NCBI RefSeq assembly: GCF_030915465.1 | Contig: NZ_CP133267.1 | Coordinates: 3,895,001 to 3,959,000, forward strand | Direction: 5' to 3' | Length of the DNA stretch: 64,000 bases | Origin: Neobacillus sp. PS3-34 | GTDB lineage: Bacteria > Bacillota > Bacilli > Bacillales > Cytobacillaceae | Shown: positions 51,494 through 54,988 of the stretch, piece by piece | Position numbering within the stretch: position 1 is the first letter of the stretch | Layout of the letters: every line of letters begins with the position of its first letter | The notes under the pieces: generated by a model | Seen by the model: the letters and a program-made list of their open reading frames with translations, nothing else | The model's database searches: none | Told to the model about the DNA's origin: nothing | Program-made: the position numbers and the translations under genes

Positions 51494-51664
51494 AAAATCA
51501 TAGAAAAAACAAGGCGGCCAACTCGGTCGCCTATTTATTATAATTTAGTTAAAATTCTTTCAATTCTATTACATATATGCTATTTTGGTAATTACCGGCA
51601 ATTTTTTCTTGCGAAATTTCAACTGTATTTTTAAAAAGAGAAAATAAATAAAGGGGGAATTAAA

Positions 51665-52528
51665 ATGATTCGAGTCCTGCAGCAATCTGTTATCATTTTC
51701 ATACTTATTCTTTTTCTTGCTGCTCTTCCCGTTATCATTGGTATTAATCCGGCCACCCAATCAATCGAGTGGCATTTTGATATGCTTTCTCATATATTTG
51801 GGGAATTTATGCATGCACTGAGCCAAGGGAGTTTAGGTACATATACGTTGGGGGCTGAAACCAGGTTTATTGCAGATGATATTGGTGATAATTTTGTATC
51901 AAGCTTTTTAATTATCGCAGTGGGTGTCAATCTGGGTGTTTTGTTCAGTTTAATATTCGGTATTTTTGTTAGCAGGTTCCGGTTTACGAAAATTTTCAAC
52001 TTGTTCTTGAATGTTCTCGCGACAATCCCGGATTTTATCATCATCATTTTATCATTAATCCTTGCAGTAAAAATTTATAAAGAAACAGGATTCAGGGTTG
52101 TATCGTTAAGGCGAGATGCGGGTCCGATCAATATCTGGTTTCCAATGGTCCTTGTTGGGCTTGCTCCGACATTATACTTGTTTAAATTGGTCGCTGTCCG
52201 TTATTACCAAATAAGCGGTGATGATTATATAAAAACAGCAGTAGCAAAAGGAATGAGATTGAATTACATAAACTTTCAACATGTATTTAAAAATGTTGAA
52301 CCCTTTATTATAGCAGAACTTACCAAAGTCATTTCATTAGCGATAGGCAATCTGTTTATTGTTGAATATCTGATGAATGTTCCAGGCATTACTAAATTTA
52401 TTTTTTTAAGTAATGAAGTCCAGCCTCTGGCGATTGGCTTATTTTCTCTGCTTATTATTTCTCTCCTAGTCTATATTTCTGTAAGGCTGGTACTTTATTT
52501 ATTTAAACGGGGTTTTATCTATGAATAA
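51665..52528 (+). CDS. OppB/DppB-like ABC transporter permease
   Basis: A 287-residue integral membrane protein with about six helices and the cytoplasmic coupling (EAA-type) loop YIKTAVAKGMRLNYINFQHV near residue 195, typical of oligopeptide/nickel-type inner-membrane permeases of the binding-protein-dependent family. It is divergent from classical OppB: the N-terminal periplasmic loop is altered and there is no clear TPxxFWL-like motif. ATG 51665 behind AAAGGGGGAAT. It overlaps the next gene by eight bases, so the two permeases surely form a pair. No ATPase or binding-protein gene lies nearby. Confidence 0.88.
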   Translation: MIRVLQQSVIIFILILFLAALPVIIGINPATQSIEWHFDMLSHIFGEFMHALSQGSLGTYTLGAETRFIADDIGDNFVSSFLIIAVGVNLGVLFSLIFGIFVSRFRFTKIFNLFLNVLATIPDFIIIILSLILAVKIYKETGFRVVSLRRDAGPINIWFPMVLVGLAPTLYLFKLVAVRYYQISGDDYIKTAVAKGMRLNYINFQHVFKNVEPFIIAELTKVISLAIGNLFIVEYLMNVPGITKFIFLSNEVQPLAIGLFSLLIISLLVYISVRLVLYLFKRGFIYE

Positions 52529-54926
52529 GTTGTTGAGAATAAATTACTCTTTTTATATAGGCTTTTTTCTAGTCGCAGCCCTTTTGTTTTTTTCGATTTT
52601 CGGACCGATATTGGCGCCCCATTCGCTAACTGAAACACTGGAAACGCATTATTCAAATGGAAAGATCTTTGCACCTCCACTTGATCCATTTAAAACAAGT
52701 GAGTATCCTCTTGGAACGGACAGATGGGGCTATGACCTTTTATCCATGGTTCTAAATGGAATCAGATACACAGTGTTTATTTCAATTGCAGTTACCGTTT
52801 TAAAAATGGCAGTTGGCACACTGATTGGTATATACATTGGAACATTAAAGAAAGTACCTAGCTGGCTTGAGGCATTTGAAAATGCCTGGAGCTATGTACC
52901 GTTATTTATCATTCTTTACTTTTTTCTTCGTCCTATCAGCTTTAACAGTGTATTATCTCCTTCACAGCTAATTACATATTTTATTATTGTCACAGCAGCA
53001 ATCAGCATACCAAGCATTATTTCTTCAGTTAGGCAAAAGTCAGCCGAACTGTCTAAATCGGTATTTATCGAAGCATCCAGAACTCTCGGAGCGGGAAGGA
53101 ACAGAATCGTCTGGCTTCACATCTTTCCGCAAATGAAGGAATCGCTTTTAATAATGTTCGTTCTGGAAGTTGTTTATGTAATTACGATTATGGGACAGCT
53201 TGCTTTAATGAATATTTTTATTGGCGGGACAAAAATGTCCTTGGACCCGATTATTTATAATTCGATTACAAAGGAATTAGCAGGATTGGTTGGCCAGGCA
53301 AGGGGAAATGTTTATGGAACTTTCCATGTGCTTTTGGTTCCGCTTTTTGTTTTATTATTGACGACATCATCCTTCAGCCTGCTTGCCAATGGACTGAAAA
53401 ATAGATTCCAGTCGAATTATCAGCGCACTCCATGGATTAAAACTGGTTTCGAACCGAAAATATTGCCAAAAAGAAAGCAATTAGGAAATGACACTAAAAT
53501 TTGGAAACCAACTGGTGAGCGACTGGCTTTATTGACTTTAATTGTTGCTTTCGTGGCTTTCGGCAGTTATGTTTATGCGGAAAGGAACGCAAATGTTGGT
53601 GTGAAAAACTTTAGCCAGGCTGACTATTCCATAAATGTAAAAATGAATAAAGCAGGCGTCTTTCATTCAAAGGCAAATATTGATGTTAAAAACCTTTCCT
53701 CCAAGAGCTGGGATGACTTGGTTTTTTATTTCATCCCTAATGCCTTTAAGAAAGGACATAGATATAAAAATATTAAGGGCTTTTCAGAGGTTGAAATAAA
53801 CAGTATTAAAGTAGATGGGAAAAAAGCAAATTTCACTTTGAAAAATGACACTCTAAAAGTCCAACTGAAAAAGAAAATGGAGAAACGCGACAGTAGTGTA
53901 GTTACAGTCGATTATTCGTTTACCATCCCTGAAGAGGGCAGCCGCTTTTCCAAAATAAAGGACCGGTATTACCTCGCACAATGGTATCCAATGCTAGCCA
54001 CATTTGAGCATGGGAAATGGAATAAAGAGGATTATCTGGATGGACTGGAGACCTTTGTAACCGGCTGGTCTGATTTCAAAGTATCCTATTCGTTTCCAAA
54101 GGGATATTCCATTGCTTCCACCTCCGATCATGACCCTGGTTTAAAGAAAAATAAGGGGGAGTTCGAGGCAGATAATGTCCGGGAAGTATTTATTGCTGCA
54201 TTTAAAGATATGAAGAAGTACGAGACAGAGTCAAACGGGGTAAAAATTCGCTTGTTCACAGAAGGTGACCATAATAAAGATCCTAAAAAGACATTGGAAC
54301 TAGCGAAGAGCGCGCTTTCTTTTTATCGAGAAAAAATCGGAGAATATCCCCATAAGCAGCTTGATATTGTATTAGATAAAGGGCAAAATATGGAATATCC
54401 GGGAATCATAACTGTAGATCCATATGGTGATGATGATGCCTTCTTTATATTAGCAATAGTGCATGAAATTGCACATCAGTACTTTTATGGTGTTGTTGCC
54501 AATGATCAATACAATGAGGCGTGGCTTGATGAGGGCTTTACAGAGTTTGCCACTAACATGTATTTCTATGTTAAAGAAAAGCAGTCTGAATATGAGGCTC
54601 AGATACTTTCCTATAACAGGATGGATAGGGCTGAGCAGCAGGGATTAGGCAAGCAGTACTCCAATGTCCCACTGGATAAGAATCAGAGTACAGCTTATAT
54701 ATACGGCCAGCCAGCTATTCAATTATTCGATATGATTCAGGATAATTACACGCTGAAAGGCAAGGATCTCCGCACAGTCGATATGCAGTATCTCTCTGAT
54801 TATTATAATCATTTTAAATATAAACAAGTTGACACTAAAGAGTTTTTGAAATTCACTATGAATTATTTCGAACTTCCTAGTGGCTATTTTACTGATTGGC
54901 TAGATGTGCAAAAAGCAAATCATTAA
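52521..54926 (+). CDS. OppC-like ABC permease fused to an M1 family aminopeptidase
   Basis: An 801-residue two-part protein. Residues 1-295 are an OppC/DppC-type permease: LAPHSLTETL and PLGTDRWGYDLLSMVLNGIR after the first helix, five or six helices, and the coupling loop FIEASRTLGAGRNRIVWLHI. A further helix (LALLTLIVAFVAFGSYVYA, about 337-356) leads to an extracytoplasmic M1 metallopeptidase-like region. It has substrate motif QNMEYPGI near residue 632 and the zinc motif HEIAHQYFYG with the third ligand in NEAWLDEGFTEF (HExxH-x18-E). A single uninterrupted frame joins them, so the fusion is read directly. Inferred role: cutting peptides at the mouth of a peptide transporter, or sensing them. 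Confidence 0.9.
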   Translation: MNKLLRINYSFYIGFFLVAALLFFSIFGPILAPHSLTETLETHYSNGKIFAPPLDPFKTSEYPLGTDRWGYDLLSMVLNGIRYTVFISIAVTVLKMAVGTLIGIYIGTLKKVPSWLEAFENAWSYVPLFIILYFFLRPISFNSVLSPSQLITYFIIVTAAISIPSIISSVRQKSAELSKSVFIEASRTLGAGRNRIVWLHIFPQMKESLLIMFVLEVVYVITIMGQLALMNIFIGGTKMSLDPIIYNSITKELAGLVGQARGNVYGTFHVLLVPLFVLLLTTSSFSLLANGLKNRFQSNYQRTPWIKTGFEPKILPKRKQLGNDTKIWKPTGERLALLTLIVAFVAFGSYVYAERNANVGVKNFSQADYSINVKMNKAGVFHSKANIDVKNLSSKSWDDLVFYFIPNAFKKGHRYKNIKGFSEVEINSIKVDGKKANFTLKNDTLKVQLKKKMEKRDSSVVTVDYSFTIPEEGSRFSKIKDRYYLAQWYPMLATFEHGKWNKEDYLDGLETFVTGWSDFKVSYSFPKGYSIASTSDHDPGLKKNKGEFEADNVREVFIAAFKDMKKYETESNGVKIRLFTEGDHNKDPKKTLELAKSALSFYREKIGEYPHKQLDIVLDKGQNMEYPGIITVDPYGDDDAFFILAIVHEIAHQYFYGVVANDQYNEAWLDEGFTEFATNMYFYVKEKQSEYEAQILSYNRMDRAEQQGLGKQYSNVPLDKNQSTAYIYGQPAIQLFDMIQDNYTLKGKDLRTVDMQYLSDYYNHFKYKQVDTKEFLKFTMNYFELPSGYFTDWLDVQKANH

Positions 54927-54940
54927 TGCGTTTGTGTAGA

Positions 54941-54988
54941 AAAACGATAACAGGCAGATAATATCCTGCCTGTTATCGTTTTTTTTAT
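54941..54988 (+). terminator. Terminator after the permease-peptidase gene
   Basis: Long perfect stem AACGATAACAGGCAG / CTGCCTGTTATCGTT with an eight-base loop and T8. Confidence 0.92.

Follow-up and report, generated by a model that had tools for sequence, protein, structure and literature searches.

An OppC-type ABC permease fused to an M1 peptidase domain, and its OppB-like partner, in Neobacillus and related genera

Results and discussion

The locus and the fusion protein

A stretch of 64,000 nucleotides (nt) from Neobacillus sp. PS3-34 (contig NZ_CP133267.1, positions 3,895,001 to 3,959,000), referred to here as the window, contains a two-gene unit of the ATP-binding cassette (ABC) transporter class. 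The first gene encodes an OppB-like permease, B', and the second, which overlaps it by 8 nt, an OppC-type permease (C') that continues in the same chain into an M1 peptidase domain (C'-M1). The features are given below in positions of the window.

51665..52528, forward strand: B', the OppB-like partner permease, 287 amino acids (aa); BPD_transp_1 at residues 91-281, homologue search
52521..54926, forward strand: the fusion C'-M1, 801 aa; intact open reading frame (ORF), Pfam, homologue search, structure model
52521..53411, forward strand: OppC-type permease portion (residues 1-297), modelled with six helices; OppC_N, BPD_transp_1, model
53070..53129, forward strand: EAA coupling loop, residues 184-203 (EASRTLGAG...P); invariant residues, entropy
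53424..53513, forward strand: predicted cytoplasmic linker, residues 302-331, with 8 K/R and 2 D/E; charge and low predicted local distance difference test score (pLDDT)
53514..53582, forward strand: added transmembrane (TM) anchoring helix, residues 332-354, as modelled
53601..54200, forward strand: M1 beta domain, residues 361-560; model, border set by us
54201..54923, forward strand: M1 catalytic domain, residues 561-801; border set by us
54393..54395, forward strand: Glu625 of NMEYPG, the exopeptidase Glu position; active-site alignment
54462..54476, forward strand: HEIAH zinc and catalytic motif, residues 648-652; active-site alignment
54531..54533, forward strand: Glu671, third zinc ligand (HExxH-x18-E); active-site alignment

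The initial annotation, which was made from the letters alone, had described a permease, an added helix and a peptidase in one 801-codon frame, and the intact ORF, the Pfam matches and the structure model agree with this. Above the curated cut-offs C'-M1 matches OppC_N (residues 8-53, 27.5 bits), BPD_transp_1 (99-293, 39.4 bits) and Peptidase_M1 (595-778); the first two, together with the EAA loop, make C' an OppC-type permease. Its sequence class is Opp/Dpp/Nik and the nearest solved permeases carry names of peptide-import subunits, but it stays below the equivalog cut-off of every named Opp/Dpp/Nik subfamily (the best is Opp4C, with 63.4 bits against 350). In the AlphaFold2 model (mean pLDDT 86.5) the six permease helices and the added helix 332-354, seven membrane helices in all, are followed by a two-domain M1 fold at 362-797. 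Profile and fold both place this domain among the M1 zinc metallopeptidases, and it is the single match to PF01433 in the window genome at E <= 0.001.

As the annotation had also stated, the active site read from the sequence is complete (N623-M-E625-Y-P-G, H648-E649-x-x-H652, x18, E671), NMEYPG with E625 being presumably the counterpart of the GAMEN exopeptidase motif. In an alignment of 106 M1 rows, taken from two sources with duplicates between them included, the active residues are intact in 94 rows and the E625 column holds Glu in 97. Y726 is the candidate for the Tyr of the M1 site; its column is variable, 33 of the 106 rows having Phe there with the remaining residues intact. The helix count of the model and the charge rule, which puts the positive linker inside, suggest that the M1 ectodomain faces outside, in line with the initial annotation; a cytoplasmic peptidase is disfavoured by the same two arguments.

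Conservation and distribution

The full-length fusion occurs in 51 copies in 50 of the 193 genomes of the family, and in many named isolates as well. A protein search returned 232 relatives; among the 120 matches listed, 65 (P0001-P0061, P0065, P0066, P0068 and P0069) are 771-826 aa long and align over at least 96% of the query, and those that are named belong to genera such as Cytobacillus, Neobacillus and Mesobacillus. Two metagenomic proteins of 649 aa (P0063 and P0064) contain two tandem copies of the C' permease and no M1 domain.

The initial annotation had conceded that its proposal would fall if the junction were an assembly artefact and the halves separate genes in all relatives. Such an artefact, of assembly or of annotation, could point to genome G049, where the halves lie in two frames; the adjoining gene looks broken too, suggesting frame errors. 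Because the same architecture repeats in 50 of 193 genomes and in named isolates, the junction is not an assembly error, and the chance of an artefact is negligible. The fusion is real and inherited.

For comparison of the surroundings we used 50 loci, i.e. the window and 49 of 74 loci (those in which the match reaches the permease). A B' homologue lies beside C' in 49 of them, which answers the annotation's question whether fusion and upstream permease always co-occur; the exception, L103, is only a C' fragment. By BLAST this fragment is 78% identical to the permease of the window; it has no B' and is perhaps a decayed copy. The 8-nt overlap of B' with the aligned C' start recurs in all 48 loci measured. 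The chromosomal site is kept too, with a shared upstream neighbour in 40 of 50 loci and a shared downstream gene likewise in 40 of 50; the neighbouring genes, recognised without a search, we take to be yppG, hsp20, yprA, yprB, opp, trpS and spx.

The permease half alone was found in eight other genomes of the 193. One genome (G191) has both a full fusion and a permease-only copy, another (G058) a remnant only. When 13 rows of the family were compared with the window, identity was 60-79% in the permease and 25-73% in the catalytic part, dead rows included; for the active rows the values were 64-79% and 56-73%.

These figures bear on the possibility that the permease merely anchors an ordinary surface aminopeptidase for nutrition, with no direct coupling and with other transporters importing the products. 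Standalone M1 relatives are common, several of them with membrane or lipoprotein-like leaders, and the permease is found without the peptidase, as would be expected for such an arrangement. A single helix would however be enough for anchoring, whereas here, in the 13 rows, the permease is more conserved than the catalytic part and its partner B' is kept, and we regard this explanation as quite unlikely.

No ATPase or binding protein of its own

The initial annotation was incomplete in one respect, as it made no mention of the ATPase and binding-protein genes that the module lacks. Profile searches of the window genome gave eight OppC_N, fourteen oligo_HPY ATPase and ten SBP_bac_5 matches. Grouped by coordinates, seven of the eight OppC genes adjoin two oligo_HPY ATPases and a substrate-binding protein (SBP); only C' stands alone, with no SBP or ATPase gene by the module in the window genome, so that it is not a complete Opp system.

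OppD/OppF-like ATPases were found within the flanks of 7 of the 50 loci, in five of which they belong to a separate opp operon, in a survey in which some flanks end at contig ends and one reference per gene was used, so that divergent members may escape; L063 gave a motif-only match. An OppA relative was found in exactly five loci (L054, L075, L076, L077 and L079), all from Neobacillus, and in these the module is the next permease unit downstream of a complete oppABCDF operon. In L054 a 97-aa ORF lies between operon and module.

The coupling loops, in turn, are kept. In C' the EAA residues L189, G190 and P203 are invariant in 42 sequences, and the mean entropy of the region is 0.83, compared with 1.32 for TM1 and 1.54 for the linker; it is also better conserved than TM2. 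In B' the EAA region (entropy 0.52 versus 1.54 for residues 1-40) is among the most conserved stretches. Since both loops are kept, the sequences suggest that an ATPase still docks on B'C'; we infer that it is borrowed from another Opp system.

Transcription signals around the unit

Two candidate terminator hairpins flank the module.

54943..54988, forward strand: strong hairpin with T-run 3' of the fusion, likely the terminator of the unit; stem of -24 kcal/mol
51512..51532, forward strand: terminator-like hairpin of the upstream gene, which would part it from the module; consensus scan, weak

The former is missing from the consensus terminator scan, whose loop limit is 8, and the latter was missed by a separate script; the scan itself is weak, with 3 sites against 2.6 expected in shuffles. 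A consensus promoter scan of the module gave 8 promoter-like sites, fewer than shuffles (12.8). Many relatives share a TTGACA box upstream of B', which is not clearly present in the window.

Apparent loss and inactivation of the peptidase

In the clade that carries the fusion, the peptidase has apparently been lost by deletion several times and has become inactive at least twice, with the permease kept. We therefore consider the permease pair to be the core of the module.

The inactive versions raise the possibility that the ectodomain serves mainly for peptide capture in place of a soluble SBP, catalysis being secondary, and that it has become a pure pseudo-peptidase receptor in several lineages. 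The dead M1 versions do keep their fold, as a receptor would. The full catalytic set, on the other hand, is kept in most aligned rows, and the dead ectodomain of the kochii pair (L069/L070) is less constrained than the permease, with a ratio of 0.26-0.29 versus 0.08; L066/L071 gave ratios of 0.38 and 0.15, at a synonymous divergence (dS) near saturation. Moreover, orphan pairs exist without M1 and without an SBP-like neighbour. Such a receptor is therefore unlikely, and still the next candidate after the import and trimming proposed below.

Orphan permease pairs and parallel M1 fusions

The module is one of a larger set of orphan pairs that resemble OppBC. The loci described here were picked from search matches and not sampled. 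Relatives with neither M1 nor an OppA- or OppD/F-like neighbour are L144, L145, L148, L153, L154 and L155 (a 3.4-kb contig); L146 is similar with a double C gene, and so is L147 except for an ABC exporter-like gene located two genes upstream. More distant orphan pairs are found in L188, L191, L193 and L195, while L189 is flanked on either side by ABC ATPases of other kinds, and the C gene of L194 has no B-type neighbour among the matches listed. Ten further loci (L178-L187) encode single-chain B-C permease fusions of 665-805 aa with no Opp-type ATPase adjoining; in eight of the ten the B part is among the three matches listed per locus, and in L178 an ABC ATPase gene of another kind lies 2.7 kb off.

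Two side observations concern these pairs. In L144 and L145 the sister orphan pair is preceded by a gene (L144:7577-8152 and L145:10052-10573) whose small product, of 191 and 173 aa respectively, is lipoprotein-like. A second, different orphan B/C-like pair starts 3.1-5.0 kb from the C' start in L036, L038, L040, L046, L052, L053, L063 and L068, in L040 on the opposite strand.

M1 domains have also been joined to other permeases. In Lottiidibacillus (L190:7697-11284) an OppC-M1 protein of 1195 aa, which ends in a 315-aa tail and is accompanied by a B' gene of its own, is encoded between two genes that adjoin the module closely in relatives of the window. Its permease falls in another orphan clade; a single clade for the permeases of the window family and Lottiidibacillus was rejected in the approximately unbiased (AU) test (p 6e-44, with long branches and a group named post hoc), whereas a single clade for their M1 domains was not (AU p 0.544). 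FtsX-like permeases with a C-terminal M1 (1337-1527 aa) are encoded in L080, L081, L084, L095, L096, L099 and L192:4663-9246, in L192 with an ATPase gene directly upstream, and M1 sits on FtsX-type permeases in 14 of the 65 rows that we chose for the M1 tree. As Lottiidibacillus, FtsX-type and ABC-2 fusions also exist, M1 was probably joined to ABC permeases several times.

This variety leaves some room for B'C' as an orphan pair that serves in sensing or export, the peptidase then processing a signal or an exported peptide. The group of pairs lacking an Opp-type ATPase or SBP, single-chain fusions included, would suit such a role, as would the FtsX-type fusions and the ABC-2-M1 protein, which is termed an exporter (PMC3924187). 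The Opp/Dpp/Nik sequence class, the peptide-import names of the nearest solved permeases and the kept coupling loops argue against it, and we consider it rather improbable.

A possible import and trimming module

The observations are that the fusion is conserved and has a partner gene, that ATPase and SBP genes are missing from its neighbourhood, and that the coupling loops are kept and the active site is intact. The reading that we favour, tentatively and at somewhat less than an even chance, is that of a two-gene Opp-class import module which borrows Opp ATPases and whose outward M1 domain captures peptides at the channel and trims them. B' and C' would together make up the membrane channel of an ABC importer of type I (Opp/Dpp class) without ATPases or binding protein of its own, powered by the ATPases of one complete Opp system of the cell. 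Tethered outside by the extra helix, the M1 ectodomain may occupy, by analogy, the place of the OpuA binding domain; there it would bind the free N-terminus of extracellular peptides, remove N-terminal residues and then present the product at the channel mouth. The outward face, the borrowed ATPases, the direction of transport, the substrate and the hand-over are all conditional parts of this proposal.

Several results weigh against it. Permease pairs persist without a peptidase or with a broken active site, so that trimming is not essential to them, and the obligatory "trim, then import" of the initial annotation is weakened. The EAA region of C' is not its most conserved stretch (entropy is lower in TM5, 0.41, TM3, 0.71, and TM6, 0.74), and the kochii and horneckiae lineages have another residue in place of its leading Glu. 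In all four other Neobacillus loci with an adjoining opp operon the stretch between oppF and B' has a terminator-like hairpin (three seen by eye, L076 by script), followed in three of the four by a TTGACA box; the operon is thus a neighbour and not part of one transcript, and the module probably has its own promoter in these loci. Finally, control by CodY was considered and no convincing box was found upstream: 30 of 47 regions have a site with at most four mismatches against 27% in mononucleotide shuffles, the sequences being related to each other.

A broader and rather unlikely version would apply to Bacillales-wide Opp-type pairs without ATPase or SBP of their own. In one clade, and on an unrelated orphan permease in Lottiidibacillus, M1 would have replaced the tethered binding domain, its active site acting as the receptor of the importer, and repeated loss of catalysis with a kept fold would have turned it into a pseudo-enzyme receptor.

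Should the ectodomain feed the channel, an enzyme would serve as the receptor of an ABC importer, and the natural active, dead and peptidase-free versions of one permease would be ready controls. Attention would also be drawn to Opp-like permease pairs without ATPases of their own.

Comparison with known systems

The initial annotation knew of no transporter in which the peptide channel subunit carries an outward zinc aminopeptidase, a claim that holds in part. In TC 3.A.1.145 one chain, the 1200-aa Q1D520 of Myxococcus xanthus, combines an ABC permease and, at its C-terminus, an M1 zinc aminopeptidase domain, as in C'-M1 (PMC3924187). Its membrane domain, however, is of the ABC-2 type with 13 predicted transmembrane segments (TMSs), and it is called an exporter, whereas C' is a type I permease of the Opp class whose partner permease is a separate protein. 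C'-M1 is no member of that family: besides Peptidase_M1 it has only Opp-type Pfam domains, and its model seven helices against about 13 TMSs. The FtsX-M1 proteins (Brevibacillus P0070, Paenibacillus L080, Rossellomorea L096) share a homologous C-terminal M1 ectodomain on an ABC permease but differ in the FtsX/MacB-type permease and in length (about 1340-1530 aa). The general idea of an ABC permease with M1 is thus already known; the OppC-type version is new to the literature searched. Among the matches listed there, of incomplete coverage with few subscription papers and orphan permeases little targeted, neither an OppC-M1 fusion with an orphan partner, nor pseudo-enzyme offshoots, nor the orphan OppBC group was found.

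C' shares OppC_N and BPD_transp_1 with OppC/DppC and matches solved chains in sequence (8z1v_B, DppC, and 8j5q_C), but those chains have about 290-300 aa and no peptidase. The seven canonical OppC genes of the window genome come with an SBP and two ATPases, unlike C'. The solved two-domain M1 protein of Deinococcus radiodurans (6a8z, 6ifg; 14% identity) has a chain of about 430 residues and no permease.

Peptidase and ABC transporter are also combined in one chain in the C39 peptidase-containing transporters; these are bacteriocin exporters, however, and their peptidase is a cytosolic cysteine peptidase. OpuA, which has its own ATPase, offers a parallel in layout. According to PMC11065425, the binding domain of the Lactococcus protein is joined to the permease through a TM anchoring helix and a linker of 11 residues, so that both proteins carry an extracytoplasmic domain on an extra helix. 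The domain of OpuA is a substrate-binding domain and not an enzyme, whereas that of C'-M1 is an M1 peptidase.
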